Source: Sphingomonas morindae (lineage in GTDB: Bacteria; Pseudomonadota; Alphaproteobacteria; Sphingomonadales; Sphingomonadaceae). From it: 64,000 bases of DNA. The notes under the pieces were generated by a model that did no database searches, was not told where the DNA came from, and saw only the letters and a program-made list of their open reading frames with translations. Shown here piece by piece: positions 30,149 to 48,805 of this stretch; position 1 is the first letter of the stretch; the number at the start of each line of letters is the position of its first letter. The position numbers were made by a program, and so were the translations under genes. The stretch covers positions 1,380,001 to 1,444,000 of the forward strand of contig NZ_CP084930.1 of the NCBI RefSeq assembly GCF_023822065.1, written 5' to 3'.

Positions 30149-30943
30149 TTACTGCGCCGCCTGCAGGTTCACGGCGGCGTACTTGCCGCGGCGATCCACC
30201 TCGAGCTCGAACTCGAGCCGATCACCCTCGTTGAGGGTGGTCATGCCGGCGCGCTCGACGGCCGAGATGTGGACAAAGGCGTCCGGCTGGCCATCATCCC
30301 GCTGGATGAAGCCGAAGCCCTTCATCGGGTTGAAGAACTTCACCACGCCCGAGGCGCGCTCGCCGGTCAGCTGGCGGGCCGGGGCGCGCGGCGCCTCGGC
30401 CACGGCGATCGGCTCGCCCTCGATCTTCAGCTCGGTCGCAGAGATGCGGCCGCCGCGATCGACGAGCGTGAACTCCAGCGGCTGGCCCTCGGCCAGCCCG
30501 GTGAGGCCCGCCTGCTCGACCGCCGAGATGTGCACGAACACATCCTCGCCGCCATCATCGCGCACGATGAAGCCGAAGCCCTTCTGGCCGTTGAAAAACT
30601 TCACGGTGCCCTTGGCGGTGCCAACGATCTGCGCGGGCATGCCGCGGCCGCCGCCGCCAAAGCCGCCACCGCCGCCCCGGCCACCGCCGAAACCACCGCC
30701 GCCGCCGAAGCCGCCACCACCGCCGCCATAGCCGCCGCGACCACCGCCGCCGCCGCCACCGAAACGGTCACCGCCGCCGCCGCCGCCGAAGCGGTCACCA
30801 CCGCCAAAGCCGCCACCGCCGTAGCGATCGCCACCGCCGAAGCCACCGCCGCCATAACCGCCGCCGCCGAAATCGTCGTCGCCGCCGAAGCCGTCGCGCT
30901 TGTCCCTGCCGCGCTGCCCGCGCCGCCCACGATCAAAACTCAT
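30149..30943 (-). CDS. Double cold-shock-domain protein with glycine-rich N-terminal arm
   Basis: A 264-residue RNA/DNA-binding protein. A short basic start ([20 protein letters not shown]) is followed by about 80 residues that are mostly Gly with spaced Phe, Tyr and Arg. Two cold-shock domains follow: residues about 108-175 ([17 protein letters not shown]) and about 197-262 ([17 protein letters not shown]). Twin-domain CSPs are usual in alphaproteobacteria; the long arm is not. It resembles FG/RGG arms that drive RNA binding and condensation, but that role is inferred. An internal ATG (residue 102) could yield a 163-residue form without the arm. GGAAAG precedes the first ATG. Confidence 0.93.
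30641..30889 (-). repeat. Glycine-codon repeat tract inside the cold-shock gene
   Basis: About 250 bases of imperfect GGC/GGT repeats interrupted by TTC, TAT, CGC and GAC codons. It encodes the Gly-rich arm with recurrent units GGGFGGG and GGGDRFGG. Such tracts can change length by slippage or recombination. Confidence 0.8.
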
Positions 30944-41945: not shown

Positions 41946-42596
41946 ATGCAGGTTCGACGTCCATGGAAACTGGCGGGCGCGCTGGTGGCGCTGCTGCCGC
42001 TCGCGGGCTGCTACGAGGATGGCTATGGCGCGGGCGGCTACGGCGCGCCCCCGCCGCCGCCGCCTCCGCCCGGCTATTATCAGGATCGGCCGCCGCCGCC
42101 GCCGCCCGGCTATTATGGCGATCGGCCGCCGCCGCCCGGCTATGATCGCGGCTATGACAATCAGGCCGCCCCGCCCCCGCCGCCGCCCGGCACGCGCGGC
42201 GATGACGGTTATCGCGACGAGCCGCCGCCCCCGCCCCCGCCGCCGCAGGATGGCGGCTATCGCCAGGCGCCCCCGCCCGCCGATTGGCAGCGCTATGACG
42301 AGGGCCGGCCCCCGCCCGGCCAGGACGCCTATTATGCGGATCGCTACTACCGGCCCGATCCCGGCCAGGGCCGCGCGCTCGGCCGTGACGATCGCGTCTA
42401 TCGCGGCCAGGACGGGCGCTATTATTGCCGCCGCTCGGACGGCACGACCGGGCTGATCGTGGGCGCGGTCGCCGGCGGCATCCTCGGCAATCTCATCGAC
42501 GGCGGCCATAGCCGCGTGCTCGGCACGCTGCTCGGCGGCGGCGGCGGCGCGCTGCTCGGCAAGTCGATCGATCAGGGCCAGGTGGTCTGCCGCTGA
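41946..42596 (+). CDS. Proline-rich lipoprotein with C-terminal glycine zipper
   Basis: A 216-residue predicted lipoprotein: signal sequence LVALLPLAGC with the lipidated Cys22. Residues about 35-115 contain repeated runs of Pro separated by GYY, DR and GD units. Residues about 166-207 form a glycine zipper (GLIVGAVAGGILGNLIDGG, VLGTLLGGGGGALLGKS) that resembles the 2TM glycine-zipper family of outer-membrane proteins. GGAGGAGGAT precedes the ATG. Possibly a structural envelope protein; function unknown. Confidence 0.8.
   Translation: MQVRRPWKLAGALVALLPLAGCYEDGYGAGGYGAPPPPPPPPGYYQDRPPPPPPGYYGDRPPPPGYDRGYDNQAAPPPPPPGTRGDDGYRDEPPPPPPPPQDGGYRQAPPPADWQRYDEGRPPPGQDAYYADRYYRPDPGQGRALGRDDRVYRGQDGRYYCRRSDGTTGLIVGAVAGGILGNLIDGGHSRVLGTLLGGGGGALLGKSIDQGQVVCR
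42036..42292 (+). repeat. Proline-codon (CCG/CCC) repeat region
   Basis: Five or six imperfect units of four to eight proline codons followed by GGCTATTAT or similar. It encodes the PPPPPPGYY-type repeats of the lipoprotein; the GGCGATCGGCCGCCG segments recur almost unchanged. Confidence 0.75.
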
Positions 42597-43072: not shown

Positions 43073-43552
43073 TCAGAGAAAGTAGCGCAGCTTGACCATC
43101 TCGTCCGTGGCTTGGCCCGTCACCGTGATTTCCGCCGCGCGGAAGCTGGGCGGGCCAAACCAGAGGCGCGGATTGTTGGAGAAGCCCACGCCCTCGATCG
43201 GGATGCCGAAGCGCGTGTCGATCCGGCCATTGCCGTTCTCGTCATGGAACAGCGCCACGGCATAGTGGCCGCTCGGCAGATCGTCGAAGCGCATCCGCGT
43301 GGCGGCGGCCGCCGCCACGGTGCGCCGGCGCGCCACCGGATCCTTGTCGCACGCCGGGAAATGCGCGGGATCGGCGGTGATGCACACCTGCACCAGCCCC
43401 TTGGTGGAGCGCAGCCCCTCAAGCCCGATGTCAAGACTGGCGAGCGGGGCGGCGCCGCCCAGCCCGCCCGCCGCCAGGACGAGCAGCGTCGAACGAGCCC
43501 AGCCCCTGATCGGTGCCGCAGGCGCGGTCCCAGAAACGGAAATAGAGTCCAT
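43073..43552 (-). CDS. DUF2141 exported protein
   Basis: A 159-residue protein. The first 40 residues hold a hydrophobic stretch (STLLVLAAGGLGGAAPLAS) likely to be a signal peptide with a long start. The mature part has the DUF2141 pattern: GLVQVCITADPAHFPAC, FDDLPSGHYAVALFHDENGNGRIDTRFGIPIEGVGFSNNP. The family is uncharacterised. The only usable ATG gives a 122-base overlap with the end of the upstream sterol desaturase gene. Confidence 0.82.
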   Translation of the reverse strand: MDSISVSGTAPAAPIRGWARSTLLVLAAGGLGGAAPLASLDIGLEGLRSTKGLVQVCITADPAHFPACDKDPVARRRTVAAAAATRMRFDDLPSGHYAVALFHDENGNGRIDTRFGIPIEGVGFSNNPRLWFGPPSFRAAEITVTGQATDEMVKLRYFL

Positions 43553-44204
43553 AATTGCACCTATAGTGCTCGTGGTGGCGCTGGTGATGGCTGGCGGTGA
43601 TCAGCCAACGCCCGGCCGGCCCTTCCACCAGCGCGCGCGGAAAAATTTCCCAGCCCATGTGATTGGTCACGCCCATCACGGTCATGATCGTCAGCACCGT
43701 GGCGAGCGCGGTGACATGGATGGGGATGAGGAAGACGAGCGCGGGGATCACGATCGCCCCGCTCACCGCCTCCCAGGGATGGAAGCTCATCGCCGCCCAG
43801 GCGGTGGGCGGGCGGCTGGCATGGTGCACGGCATGGGCGATGCGGAACAGCCGCGGCCGGTGCATCAATCGGTGCGTCCAGTAGAACCAGCTGTCGTGCA
43901 GCAGCAGGAAGAGCAGCACCGAAGCCGGCCACCAGAGCAGCGGATAGGCGTGGATATCGGCATAGATGCGCGTGAGCCCGCGCGCGCGCCACGCCCAGGC
44001 GACCAGCCCGGCCGGCACGCCGTAGATCGCGGCCGACACCAGCGACCAGCCGATCTCGCGCCGGATCTGGCGGGCGAGGCCGGCATAGCGGCCGGGATGC
44101 CGCAGCCGCGTCGCCAGCGCGAAACCGCCGCTCGCGAGCAGATAGCGCACCGCCACGATCATCGTCATCGCGACGGCGGACAGGGCCAGGGCAGCGATCG
44201 GCAT
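43431..44204 (-). CDS. Sterol desaturase / fatty acid hydroxylase family protein
   Basis: A 257-residue membrane di-iron enzyme with three to four helices. The histidine boxes are complete: His103-x7-His111 (HDSWFYWTHR), His124-x2-His127-His128 (HAVHHAS), and His206-His207-x2-His210-His211 (HHQRHHEHY). Family members hydroxylate or desaturate lipids, carotenoids or sterol-like compounds; the substrate is open. The last 20 residues after GTDQGLG are non-conserved and encoded within the DUF2141 overlap. Confidence 0.92.
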   Translation of the reverse strand: MPIAALALSAVAMTMIVAVRYLLASGGFALATRLRHPGRYAGLARQIRREIGWSLVSAAIYGVPAGLVAWAWRARGLTRIYADIHAYPLLWWPASVLLFLLLHDSWFYWTHRLMHRPRLFRIAHAVHHASRPPTAWAAMSFHPWEAVSGAIVIPALVFLIPIHVTALATVLTIMTVMGVTNHMGWEIFPRALVEGPAGRWLITASHHQRHHEHYRCNYGLYFRFWDRACGTDQGLGSFDAARPGGGRAGRRRPARQS

Positions 44205-44246: not shown

Positions 44247-44999
44247 TCAGCGCGCCAGCCGCCCGTCGTGCAGCGCCTCGACGGCGAAGGGGAAGAGCGT
44301 GGCGGGATCGGGATCGGCGATCTCGGCGGCGATCGCGGGCGGCGCCGCGACGCGCAGGATATGCCGGATCACCGCCAGCCGCGCGCGCTTCTTGTGATCG
44401 GCGCGCACGCACATCCACGGCCCCAGCGGCGTGTGGGTGCGCTCCAGCATCGTGTCGCGCGCGGCGGAATAGCCGTCCCATTTCTCCTGGGCGACATTGT
44501 CGAGCGGCGAGGTCTTGAGCGCCTTGAGCGGATCGGTGCGGCGCGCGGACAGGCGCTTTTCCTGCTCTTTTTTGTCGATATCGAGCCAGATTTTGACCAG
44601 TTTGATGCCGCTTTCGACCAGCATCCGCTCAAAATCGGGCGCATCGCGCAGGAATTCGGCCTGTTCGGCGGGAGTGGAGAAGCCCATCACCACCTCCACC
44701 CCGGCGCGGTTGTACCAGCTGCGGTTGAAGATCACGATCTCGCCCGCCGCCGGCAGCTGCGCCACATAGCGCTGGAAATACCATTGGGTGCGCTCGCGGT
44801 CCGAGGGCTTGGGCAGGGCGACGCTGCGCGTAAGGCGCGGGCTGAGATGCTCGGTGATGCGCTTGATCGTGCCGTCCTTGCCGGCGGCGTCGCGCCCTTC
44901 CAGCACGATCACCAGCCGCTCGCCGCTGTCCGCCATGGCCTGTTGGGTCCGCACCAGCGCCAGTTGCAGCGCGGCAAGCTCATCCTGATACTCGCTCAT
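44247..44999 (-). CDS. ppk2: Polyphosphate kinase 2
   Basis: A 250-residue PPK2 of the single-domain type, transferring phosphate between polyphosphate and nucleotides. Walker A is EGRDAAGKDG (34-43), the lid contains RSVALPKPSDRERTQWYFQRYV, and Walker B-like FNRSWYNRAGVE follows. PPK2s usually phosphorylate GDP or ADP. It lies 42 bases upstream of the desaturase gene. Confidence 0.95.
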   Translation of the reverse strand: MSEYQDELAALQLALVRTQQAMADSGERLVIVLEGRDAAGKDGTIKRITEHLSPRLTRSVALPKPSDRERTQWYFQRYVAQLPAAGEIVIFNRSWYNRAGVEVVMGFSTPAEQAEFLRDAPDFERMLVESGIKLVKIWLDIDKKEQEKRLSARRTDPLKALKTSPLDNVAQEKWDGYSAARDTMLERTHTPLGPWMCVRADHKKRARLAVIRHILRVAAPPAIAAEIADPDPATLFPFAVEALHDGRLAR

Positions 45000-45030: not shown

Positions 45031-46059
45031 TCAAACCCTTAAGCGGCGAACGATCCGTCGCGCGGCACCGATCACCGCGTCGCGCACGGGCGGGGCGGCG
45101 GCGCGCGCACGGGCGAAGCCGGGGCAGGCGGCGCGCAGCGCGCGCGGGCCATAGGCGCCGGCGCGCAGCCCGCGCCGGGCGATCGCCCACCAGGTGGCGG
45201 CGGCGGCGCCGGGCGCATAGTCGGGCGCGATCGCGCCTTGCGTGGCGAGCAGGCGATCGAGCACCGCGCCGCACGCCGCCAGCGTCGCGGCGTCGGGCGG
45301 GGCGTGGGCGGCGGCGGCGTGGCGGCTCATCAGCACCCCCGCCGCCGCCGCCTCCGCGCCGAAATCCGCCGCATAGCGCTCAGCCAGCACCGCGCCGGCC
45401 GCCAGGATCATGCGCTCCTCGAACAGGCGCGAGCTGCCGCCGGCGTGCAGCCGGTAGCGCACCAGCGGCTCGGCGAGCCGGCCGATCCGCCCGAAGGCGC
45501 GGATGCGGTGGTAAAAGTCGAAATCCTCGGCATAGCGCCGCGCATCGCGCTGGAAGGGCTGCAACCGCAGCGCCGGCTCGGCGCGCATCATCACGCTCGA
45601 CCAGGCGAGCGGGTTGGCGACCAGCAGCTGCCAGTCGATCGCATCGGGATCGGTGAGCGCGGGAAAGGGATCGGCCCCCGCCTGCGGGCCAAAGGGCGCG
45701 ATGGTGGAGGCGAGCAGCACCGCCTCGGGATGCGCCTCCAGCCAGGCCACCTGCTTGGCGAAGCGGGTGGGATGGCAGAGATCGTCCTGGTCCAGCCCGG
45801 CGATGTAGCGGCCGCGCGCCAGCGGCGCGCCGAGGCTGCGCGCGCGGGCCGGGCCGCCATTTTCGGGCGCGCGCACCACGCGGATGCGGGGATCGCCCAG
45901 GCTTTCCACCAGCGCGACGGTGTGATCGGGCGAGCCATCGTCGATCACGATGATCTCGAAATCCTGCACCGTCTGCGCGCGCACGCTGTCGATCGTCTCG
46001 CGGATCAGCGCCGCGCCCTTGTAGCTCGGCATCACCACGCTGATGAGCGGCGCCGTCAT
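45031..46059 (-). CDS. Family 2 glycosyltransferase
   Basis: A 342-residue GT2 enzyme: ISVVMPSYKGAALIRETIDSV, then FEIIVIDDGSPDHTVAL (nucleotide site), ENGGPARARSLGAPLARGRYIAGLDQDD with the DQDD metal site. The C-terminal 120 residues are helical and variable. It adds a sugar to a glycan or lipid in the cytoplasm; no partner other than the fusion gene four bases upstream is seen. The two probably share a transcript. Confidence 0.9.
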   Translation of the reverse strand: MTAPLISVVMPSYKGAALIRETIDSVRAQTVQDFEIIVIDDGSPDHTVALVESLGDPRIRVVRAPENGGPARARSLGAPLARGRYIAGLDQDDLCHPTRFAKQVAWLEAHPEAVLLASTIAPFGPQAGADPFPALTDPDAIDWQLLVANPLAWSSVMMRAEPALRLQPFQRDARRYAEDFDFYHRIRAFGRIGRLAEPLVRYRLHAGGSSRLFEERMILAAGAVLAERYAADFGAEAAAAGVLMSRHAAAAHAPPDAATLAACGAVLDRLLATQGAIAPDYAPGAAAATWWAIARRGLRAGAYGPRALRAACPGFARARAAAPPVRDAVIGAARRIVRRLRV

Positions 46060-46063
46060 GGCG

Positions 46064-48553
46064 TCAGGCGACCGCGCGGGCACAGGCGGCCTCGGCGCGG
46101 GCGAGCAGCTGCGCCGCGATCCGCTGGCCGACATCGTTCTGCCAGAGCCACAATCCGTTGGCCTGGCCCCGGAAGCTCGGCTCGCCGCCAAGCGCGCCGC
46201 TCGGCACGAAGCCGGCGGCGAGACCGATGCCGAACACCCCGTCCAGCGGCTCGCCCGCGGCATCGACGACGCGGCACTGATCGTCCACCATCGGCCCGTG
46301 CGCGGGCGCGTCGGCGCGCAGCCGGATCGCGCGGCCGGCCTGATCGATCAGCGGCAGCGCATGGGGGCGGTAGCCGAACGCCGCCACCACCAGATCGGCC
46401 TCGTCCAGCAGCCGCGCCGCCACGGCATCCTCGGCGCCGCCGAGCCGGTGAAGACGCAGCCGGGGATCGCCCGCGCGGCCGCCAATGCCGAGCGCATGGA
46501 CGACCAGCTCGCGCGCCTCCAACCGGAAGCCGGCCAGGCGGTAGACGAAGCCCGAGACGGGGCAGATATCGTCGGGCCCGAAATCCTCGAAGCCATCGGC
46601 GCGCGCCGCCGCCGCCGAGGGATAGAAGGGCCGGAGCGGCCGGCGGTGCAGCAGCGCCAGCCCGCCCGGCGCGAGCGGCACGCCCGCCTTGAGCAGCCGC
46701 ACCGCCGCCGTGACCGCGCTGGTCGAGCCGCCGACCAGCGCGATCCGCAGCGGCCGGCCGGTGGGCAGCGACGCGAGCGCCGCCTCGACCCCGCCCTCGC
46801 GCAGCAGCGCGTCCGACTGGATCAGCCGGTCGCCGCAGCGCTCGATCAGCGAACGGCCCGCCACCAGCTCCTCGGCGAGCCGCGTCGCCGGCTGGTGGCC
46901 GCCGGTGGCGAGCACGAGGCTGTGCCCATGAAGCTCGATCGCCTCGCCATCGGCGCGGCGGCGCGCGCGCACGCGCCAGCCGCCGCCACCCAGCTGCTGC
47001 GCCGCCACCACCTCATGGCCGGTGAGCAGCACGCCGCCGAGATCGTCGAGCCGCTGCGCCAGCCGCGCGCCGAGCCGATCGAGATAGGCGCCGACCTTGG
47101 CCAGCGGCACGCCAAGGCCGCCGATATGCGCGCGCAGCGCCTTGGCGACCGCCTCGTCCTCCAGCCGCAGCGCCGGCGGCAGCGCGGTATCGGCGGTGAG
47201 GAAGGTCTCGGCGGTGGAATCGGACGCGATCGCATAGGCGCCGAGCTTGCCCGATCCGATGTGCGGCGCGCGCTCGATCACCGCCAGACCGGCGGCGGCG
47301 AGCGGCTCGAGCTGGCCGGCCTTGGCGGCGGCGCCGATCAGCGCGCTGCCCGCCGGCCCGCCGCCGACCAGAATCGCGCCGAACAGCCGCGAGCGCGGCG
47401 TGGCGGGCTGCGCACGCGGCAGGCGCGGCTGGCGGCGACAGGCCTCGATCAGCGCGTCGGCGACGCGGTCGACATCGGCGATCGTCATCGCGTCCGTCAC
47501 CGGCAGCACCAGCATGCGGCTGGCGATCGCGTCCGTCACCGGCAGCGGCTCGATCAGACAGGTGTCGCGGAAATGCGGCTGCTCGGCCAGATGCGGGCTG
47601 AAATAGCGGCCGGCGCCGATCCCGGCCTCGGCGAGCCGGGCGATGATCGCCTCGCGGTGCGGCGCCAGCGCGGCGGGCAGCAGCACGGGCATGAACTGGA
47701 GCGCGGGCCGGCGACCGCGCGGAACCTGCAGGGTGAAGCCCGCCAGCCGGCGGCGATAGTGGTCCGCCAGCGCGGCGCGGTGCGTCGCCACCGCCTCGAT
47801 CTCGCCCAGCTTCTCCAGCGCGAGCAGCGCGGGCACCTCGGCCAGCTTGGCGTTGAGGCCCGGCAGCGTCGCGCTGCGCCCCGCCTCGAAGCCGAAATTG
47901 GCCATGGCGCGGAGCCGCTCGACCAGCGCCTCGTCGCGGCAATAGATGAGCCCGCCCTCGCCGGTGGCGAAGGTCTTGGTGGCGTGCATCGAGAAGACGA
48001 CGGGGAAGGGGCAATCGGTGCCGAAGCCGCGATCCGCCTCGTCGCGCGCGCCGAGCGAGGCGGCGGCATCGATCACCACCGCCAGATCGTGGCGCCGCGC
48101 GAGCCAGGCATAGCGTTCCCAATCGAGCCCGTTGCCGAAGGTGGCATAGGGGAGGATCGCCCCGATTCGCGCGCCGTGCCGCGCGAGCAGCCGCTCCTCC
48201 TCGGCCGCCGCCAGCGCCCAATCATCGGGATCGCAATCCGCCAGCACCGGGGTGAGCCCCACCCATTGCGCGGCGTGCGCGGTGGCGGCGAAGGTGAAGG
48301 CGGGGAGGATCGCCAGCGTCCGGTCGCGGCGGCCGAGCAGGCCGTGGCGCAGCGCCAGCATCAGGCCGAGCGTGGCGTTGGCGACGGCGACGCAGGCACC
48401 GCGCCCGCCGAACAGCCGCGCCGTCGCCTCCTGCTCGAAGCGCCGCGCGACCGGGCCGGAATTGCTGTAGATGCCGCTCTCCTCGATCGCCTCGAGCGCG
48501 GCGCCGAGCCGGCTCAGCCGGGGCGGAAAGGGGCGGATCAGCGGCAAATCCAT
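46064..48553 (-). CDS. Fusion: DegT/DnrJ-type aminotransferase plus FAD/NAD(P)-binding oxidoreductase
   Basis: A single 829-residue frame. Residues about 1-375 are a DegT/DnrJ/EryC1/StrS-type PLP enzyme: SNSGPVARRFEQE start, ILPAFTFAATAHAAQWVG, and PLP lysine Lys193 in FSMHATKTFATGEGGL. A Pro/Arg-rich linker leads to residues about 393-829: an FAD Rossmann motif (LVGGGPAGSALIG), GSGKLGAYAIASDS, a second nucleotide motif (IALVGGSTSAVTAAVRLL) and the closing FAD segment GVFGIGLAAGFVPSG. No start codon with a ribosome site is visible in the linker. The pairing with GT2 suggests amino-sugar or secondary metabolite modification, but function is inferred. Confidence 0.85.
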   Translation of the reverse strand: MDLPLIRPFPPRLSRLGAALEAIEESGIYSNSGPVARRFEQEATARLFGGRGACVAVANATLGLMLALRHGLLGRRDRTLAILPAFTFAATAHAAQWVGLTPVLADCDPDDWALAAAEEERLLARHGARIGAILPYATFGNGLDWERYAWLARRHDLAVVIDAAASLGARDEADRGFGTDCPFPVVFSMHATKTFATGEGGLIYCRDEALVERLRAMANFGFEAGRSATLPGLNAKLAEVPALLALEKLGEIEAVATHRAALADHYRRRLAGFTLQVPRGRRPALQFMPVLLPAALAPHREAIIARLAEAGIGAGRYFSPHLAEQPHFRDTCLIEPLPVTDAIASRMLVLPVTDAMTIADVDRVADALIEACRRQPRLPRAQPATPRSRLFGAILVGGGPAGSALIGAAAKAGQLEPLAAAGLAVIERAPHIGSGKLGAYAIASDSTAETFLTADTALPPALRLEDEAVAKALRAHIGGLGVPLAKVGAYLDRLGARLAQRLDDLGGVLLTGHEVVAAQQLGGGGWRVRARRRADGEAIELHGHSLVLATGGHQPATRLAEELVAGRSLIERCGDRLIQSDALLREGGVEAALASLPTGRPLRIALVGGSTSAVTAAVRLLKAGVPLAPGGLALLHRRPLRPFYPSAAAARADGFEDFGPDDICPVSGFVYRLAGFRLEARELVVHALGIGGRAGDPRLRLHRLGGAEDAVAARLLDEADLVVAAFGYRPHALPLIDQAGRAIRLRADAPAHGPMVDDQCRVVDAAGEPLDGVFGIGLAAGFVPSGALGGEPSFRGQANGLWLWQNDVGQRIAAQLLARAEAACARAVA

Positions 48554-48805
48554 CAGGCGCTCCCGAGCGGCGGCCGCCGGGCGCGACGGCGCCCCTGGCC
48601 GGCACCGGCGCCTGTCCAAACACGGCACAGTCTCGCGCTCCGCTATGCCAAAGCGGGTGCTAAGAAAGGCTTACGCCAGCACGCCGAAGGGATCGAGCGC
48701 ATCTCGGGACTTCGCAGTTGCACAAGCCGGCGCTATCACGGCGGTGTCATGGGAAGCTGCGCGGGCCGTCGGGCGCGCCACGGCGCGGAGCGAGCGGGAG
48801 ACGGC

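Follow-up and report, generated by a model that had tools for sequence, protein, structure and literature searches.

A DegT aminotransferase–flavoprotein fusion of sphingomonads as a candidate bifunctional enzyme for amination and N-hydroxylation of nucleotide sugars

Two types of enzyme are known to oxidize the nitrogen of sugars: P450 enzymes and enzymes with an acyl-CoA-dehydrogenase-like fold. CalE10 is a P450, and in the route that it shares with CalS13 a TDP-sugar is aminated and then N-oxidized to a hydroxyamino sugar. The nitrososynthases ORF36, RubN8, KijD3 and DnmZ are flavin enzymes that oxidize the nitrogen of TDP-amino sugars, and their fold is acyl-CoA-dehydrogenase-like. FrbH, of the FR-900098 pathway, is a PLP enzyme as well as a transferase. 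Excerpts of PMC7347517 describe how FrbG, in FR-900098 biosynthesis, acts on a CMP-linked substrate by hydroxylating its amine, and recognizes the nucleotide through its NADPH domain; a figure legend among them names the FrbG substrate differently. Cytidylyl transfer in FR-900098 biosynthesis is assigned to FrbH in excerpts of PMC6697681, and CalE10 appears with CalS13, for calicheamicin, in the title of a reference in PMC4851618.

The window analyzed here is a whole stretch of 64,000 nucleotides from Sphingomonas morindae. On its minus strand, a gene at 46064..48553 encodes a DegT-type aminotransferase and a flavoprotein as a single chain of 829 amino acids, as assigned from the open reading frame, Pfam matches and comparison of loci. 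The open reading frame (46064..48628, minus strand) holds this product and its stop codon, with the start ATG at 48553 and the stop at 46064. The preliminary description of the region gave no strand; the fused frame is placed here on the minus strand, and the plus-strand frame across the same bases (46064-48553) has no match in Pfam.

The N-terminal half is a complete DegT/DnrJ/EryC1/StrS aminotransferase domain, as the preliminary description had proposed. It spans residues 18–368 (47450..48502, minus strand), where PF01041 matches with an E-value of 3.4e-68 and 230.9 bits, above the cut-off of 19.8. The nearest solved chains in a PDB search are 3ju7 (E 2.2e-56) and 2po3 (9.5e-40). The best NCBIfam model is DesI (TIGR04427), whose 182.5 bits miss the equivalog cut-off of 650 bits by far. 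Lys193, which had also been pointed out, is present within the motif HATK (47975..47977, minus strand) and is a lysine in 80 of 80 aligned full-length proteins; by analogy with the family, it is expected to be the PLP-binding lysine.

The two halves are joined by a variable linker (about residues 369–391; 47381..47449, minus strand) that differs in length and sequence among the 80 aligned proteins while the frame stays open throughout. The flavoprotein domain covers about residues 392–829 (46067..47380, minus strand), as judged from its fold matches and a model of this half alone with a pLDDT of 87.2. Both of the nucleotide motifs claimed for it are found: the FAD motif GGGPAG at residues 397–402 (47348..47365, minus strand), in which G397, G399 and P400 occur in 80 of 80 proteins, and the NAD(P)H motif GGSTSA at residues 608–613 (46715..46732, minus strand), which aligns with GGGQSA of the N-hydroxylases. 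A family signature, DICPVSGFVYRLAGFR, follows at residues 662–677 (46523..46570, minus strand). The sequence GYRP at residues 727–730 (46364..46375, minus strand) aligns with the ATGY motif of N-hydroxylases. Pyr_redox_2 scores 17.4 bits on residues 394–631, under its cut-off of 26.1. The full-length model of the fused protein has a pTM of 0.57, so no reading of the interface or of a channel is possible.

We scanned one genome per species with the full-length query and obtained 110 matches, of which the best 80 were kept; with the S. morindae locus they form a set of 81 loci, which favours fusions because the matches were ranked by the full-length query. A single frame across both halves is kept in 80 of the 81 loci. 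The exception (L081) is split over two frames, and another genome of its species (L036) is intact. The statement that aminotransferase and flavoprotein are fused without an intervening stop is therefore confirmed: read-through on this scale rejects a read error or frameshift that joins two genes, and relatives do not always carry the halves as separate genes, since fusions are common to most loci compared.

The spread of the gene was followed in an even draw of 249 Sphingomonadaceae genomes, that of S. morindae included. The flavoprotein occurs in 10 of them, and in eight of these it lies in open frames of 834 amino acids or more. In five of the eight long frames (G000, G223, G241, G692 and G973), a profile or a search confirmed the DegT half; in the other three (G854, G865 and G953), fusion was judged from frame length only. 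In G664, flavoprotein and DegT are two genes overlapping at ATGA, and in G935 the locus is cut by contig ends. These counts indicate that the gene is patchy in the family, yet mostly fused where present. A phage origin was rejected: three matches in phage records all lie over the DegT half only, and the flavoprotein profile has no match in viral contigs. We found no description of the fused layout in the open-access literature, which does not prove its absence; the layout is unfamiliar, built from known parts and new as a combination.

Directly downstream of the fused gene, a 342-residue GT2 glycosyltransferase (PF00535, 118.5 bits) is encoded at 45031..46059 on the minus strand, its start lying 4 bases after the fused gene's stop. 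Of the 81 loci, 80 have a GT2 homologue directly downstream, on the strand of the fused gene, and L030 is the exception. GT2 starts, estimated by alignment to the GT2 of the window, range from 7 bases inside the fused gene to 77 bases past its end, and in 39 loci the two genes overlap. With the fusion and the GT2 gene each present in 80 of 81 loci, the two genes together form a cassette. The neighbourhood beyond these two genes is less conserved across the 81 loci, and the conserved cassette itself includes neither a dehydrogenase nor a dehydratase. The same GT2-type neighbour accompanies a plasmid-borne copy in Sphingomonas parapaucimobilis. On a Granulicella plasmid that carries the halves in reverse order, a glycosyltransferase gene follows directly and polysaccharide export genes lie nearby.

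The surroundings of the cassette have features of their own. On the strand of the GT2 gene and after it lie a PPK2 polyphosphate kinase gene (44247-44999), 31 bases from GT2, and a fatty-acid-hydroxylase-family gene (43431-44204). The window also contains a 36-base tandem repeat of about 2.3–2.8 copies (42053-42147) and overlapping GCC-rich tandem repeats with periods of 24, 27, 33 and 48 bases (30641-30896).

Relatives of the flavoprotein, drawn from searches of sampled genomes and plasmids, are usually adjacent to a DegT gene when the halves are not fused. Such a separate gene adjoins the flavoprotein in L092, L093, L094, L095, L108, L110, L111, L162 and L183 and in 14 of the 15 loci L184–L198. 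The DegT gene comes first in most separate pairs and second in L093, L094, L095 and L162. Fusions of the opposite order, with the flavoprotein first and DegT second, occur in L106 (Granulicella) and L109. Adjacency and reversed fusion give good support to the functional coupling suggested earlier. Among the separate DegT partners, those of L092 (7908-9389), L111 (7627-9117), L184–L196 and L198 carry an N-terminal extension of at least 115 residues; that of L092 resembles a CBS domain, at 20.8 bits against a cut-off of 24. Three plasmid relatives of the DegT half (L167, L168 and L169) share 33–36% identity with it and have no flavoprotein among their annotated neighbours; two of them, at 35–36% identity, lie near rfb genes.

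PLP enzymes of other types accompany further relatives. On plasmids of Rahnella (L104) and Erwinia (L105), an aminotransferase-class PLP gene lies next door; the one in L104 encodes a CobD/HisC-like domain joined to a nucleotidyltransferase. A nucleotidyltransferase–CobD/HisC-like fusion is also found one gene away from the flavoprotein on a Priestia plasmid (L165). In Shinella (L166), a Cys/Met-type PLP enzyme adjoins the flavoprotein within an NRPS/PKS cluster, and in L112 and L113 a PALP-type enzyme is encoded a few genes upstream. No DegT or PLP partner was seen by L096, L161 and L197, PLP genes other than DegT having been noted without a systematic search. What the partners share is a PLP enzyme that would yield an amine-bearing product, several of them beside nucleotidyl chemistry, a setting reminiscent of FR-900098 biosynthesis.

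Two of these plasmid settings form larger clusters. The L104 (13911-24818) and L105 (13911-24903) clusters are near-identical and contain the flavoprotein, the PLP enzyme, a CDP-alcohol phosphatidyltransferase, HAD proteins, an ATP-grasp protein and an MFS protein. On Priestia megaterium plasmid pBM700 (L165, 6575-14679), the flavoprotein is found with two ATP-grasp proteins, an AAC(3)-like acetyltransferase, the nucleotidyltransferase–PLP fusion and DXR. DXR is the target of fosmidomycin, and this cluster looks like a route to a DXR-directed hydroxamate. The annotation of the stretches examined lists no phosphoenolpyruvate mutase, so the likeness to an FR-900098 route is only partial.

In phylogenetic trees of the two halves, three widely separated DegT clades each have a matching clade of flavoproteins: L092/L111; L093/L095/L162; and the sphingomonad set together with L106, L108, L109 and L110. 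The flavoprotein tree places the separate genes L108 and L110 and the reverse fusions L106 and L109 outside the sphingomonad fusions. The DegT tree has lower resolution, with 13 of its 31 inner branches starred, and places all four inside the sphingomonads. Between them, the trees give no single direction of change; the two opposite fusion orders still imply at least two fusion or rearrangement events.

The fold of the flavoprotein half lies near that of the group B monooxygenases. In a Foldseek search of the PDB, SidA ornithine N-hydroxylase occupies ranks 1–29 of the best 50 of 1238 matches (best E 2.7e-13); DfoA comes in at rank 34, and a lysine monooxygenase follows at rank 42. TM-scores are about 0.5, however, and a dihydrolipoamide dehydrogenase also appears, with an E-value of 5.7e-12. 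The Foldseek list also holds the name DiatB, on which we found no relevant paper in the open-access literature. Reductases likewise match this half in the PDB sequence search. The protein has the group B feature of FAD and NAD(P)H Rossmann domains in one chain, as seen in fold, motifs and profiles, a feature that reductases share. The FMO fingerprint is an HS pair ahead of the NADPH motif; in the window protein, QSD aligns with the 'lHS' of FMOs, and the HS pair of FMOs and BVMOs is missing.

Family models and motifs set the domain apart from known N-hydroxylases. The window protein reaches the cut-off of no N-hydroxylase family model, and PF13434 has no match in it at E 0.01. Two of 49 family members match PF13434 weakly, the best with E 0.00068. 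Our family alignments A1 and A2 comprise 49 sequences, the window protein and 48 of the 80 loci. When eight separate relatives were scanned, L165 and L166 passed (23.6 and 26.2 bits against 21.3), L104 fell below the cut-off and five had no match. L166 is annotated as a SidA/IucD/PvdA family monooxygenase, and NCBIfam gives only weak, mixed flavoprotein matches for the relatives. In an alignment with three of 11 N-hydroxylases, GGGPAG, GGSTSA and AFGY are in register with GxGPxN, GxGQSA and ATGY but differ from them. The signature DxCPxSGxVxRxxGFR is missing from all three of these N-hydroxylases. Its D, C, R, G and R (D662, C664, R672, G675 and R677) are invariant in 80 of 80 fusion proteins, and it is recognizable in all 10 divergent rows checked (nine by pattern, L112 by eye), with L166 ending in Y. 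From profiles and the modelled fold, we read the flavoprotein as a distinct subfamily close to the group B flavin monooxygenases, among them SidA-type N-hydroxylases and FMOs; the window protein is not filed as a SidA-family member. A stray siderophore N-hydroxylase was rejected as an explanation, PF13434 at E 1e-15 being found in 0 of 119 family genomes.

Profile comparison (hhalign) with small sets gave scores of 132.0 for FMOs, 102.8 for N-hydroxylases and 55.6 for thioredoxin reductases, and 107.4, 81.9 and 43.7 with the narrower profile A1. The sets contained 11 of 11 N-hydroxylases, 12 of 14 reductases (without L134 and L137) and eight of 10 FMO-like proteins (without L142 and L143); L137, L142 and L143 had no clean frame, and L117 and L139 keep extra N-terminal residues. 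A thioredoxin-reductase-type protein, the lowest of the three scores, was rejected, although the comparison used small sets and a shorter reductase. Because the FMO profiles outscore those of the N-hydroxylases, nitrogen is not singled out as the oxidized atom. The flavin half could thus be a group B monooxygenase or NAD(P)H-dependent reductase that acts on a carbon or another substituent of a nucleotide amino sugar, and the reductase folds among the Foldseek and PDB sequence matches would fit this as well. We consider it somewhat unlikely, given that the recurrent partners make an amine and that the top fold matches are N-hydroxylases.

We favour, with a probability of about 0.5, a bifunctional enzyme for amination and N-hydroxylation of a nucleotide sugar. 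With PLP and an amino donor, the DegT half would convert a keto-sugar linked to a nucleotide into the amino sugar. We infer that the keto-sugar would most simply be dTDP-4-keto-6-deoxyglucose, which should be available because the S. morindae genome contains a dTDP-glucose 4,6-dehydratase (one protein above its cut-off). The flavin half, using FAD, NAD(P)H and O2, would then place a hydroxyl group on the newly formed amine; the resulting hydroxyamino sugar, still linked to its nucleotide, might be oxidized further. The GT2 enzyme encoded directly downstream would move the product onto a surface glycan. The data show both domains, the conserved fusion, the adjacent GT2 gene, the repeated association of the flavoprotein family with PLP enzymes and a fold close to that of group B monooxygenases; the N-hydroxylation, the sugar, the order of steps and the glycan are proposed on that basis. 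Counting against the proposal are the lack of an N-hydroxylase family match in the window protein, the TM-scores of about 0.5, the departures from classical motifs, the higher FMO profile scores, the flavoprotein loci in which no PLP partner was seen and the DegT relatives with no annotated flavoprotein neighbour.

The reverse order, in which the flavin half first oxidizes a sugar hydroxyl to a ketone that the DegT half then aminates, with channelling, is clearly unlikely. DegT enzymes need a keto-sugar, for which the cassette has no dehydrogenase or dehydratase, and fusion and adjacency fit this order equally. The flavoprotein has an NAD(P)H domain, though, and its fold and profiles lie near NAD(P)H- and O2-dependent group B monooxygenases; several relatives (L104, L165 and L166) lie near PLP enzymes other than keto-sugar aminotransferases, and the 4,6-dehydratase is already encoded in the genome. 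Accordingly, of the two proposals in the preliminary description, an oxidation coupled to amination is plausible, and a flavoprotein that supplies or channels the keto substrate fits less well. Loss of oxygenase chemistry, leaving a structural or redox-sensing role for the aminotransferase, is very improbable: the motifs depart from their classical forms (GGSTSA for GGGQSA, AFGY for ATGY) and C664 and C760 are two invariant cysteines (80 of 80 proteins), but the FAD and NAD(P)H motif residues of the aligned fusion proteins are invariant or nearly so and the flavoprotein family also exists as a separate gene.

Coupled amination and N-hydroxylation would make the fused protein, at somewhat short of even odds, a sphingomonad one-protein factory for nucleotide-activated N-oxidized sugars (hydroxyamino and perhaps nitroso, oxime or nitro) that GT2 places in a surface glycan. 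If true, this would add a further, unrelated enzyme type for sugar N-oxidation to the P450 and acyl-CoA-dehydrogenase-like types, and would put an N–O sugar in a bacterial surface polysaccharide. The protein would then belong to a broad unnamed flavoprotein family that oxidizes amines from neighbouring PLP enzymes, and N–O chemistry would reach beyond siderophores and antibiotics into the surface sugars that environmental bacteria make. The DegT–flavoprotein pairing, fused in two opposite orders, could in that case serve as a genomic signature for N-oxidized sugars in other polysaccharide loci. A cassette of two genes is small enough for expression and testing.

Each of the known systems resembles the fusion in part. 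DesI and 3ju7, the best NCBIfam model and best solved chain for the DegT half, have no flavoprotein domain. A PDB search with the DegT half also matches CalS13 (4zas, E 0.0002); in the CalE10/CalS13 system, however, the oxidase is apart from the aminotransferase and the pathway makes an antibiotic. The fold of ORF36, RubN8, KijD3 and DnmZ is not the two-Rossmann fold modelled for the flavoprotein of the window. SidA, PvdA and IucD (PF13434) provide the best fold matches, and in alignment their FAD, NAD(P)H and GY motifs fall in register. They differ from the window protein in their substrate, a free amino acid or diamine, and the window protein lacks a PF13434 match and carries a signature that those enzymes lack. 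No chain named FrbG is among the PDB matches listed, and FrbG is compared here by its description in the excerpts only. The substrate of FrbG and FrbH is a phosphonate rather than a sugar and the two proteins are separate, but N-hydroxylation of a nucleotide-tethered amine is the precedent that FrbG offers for the reaction proposed here.
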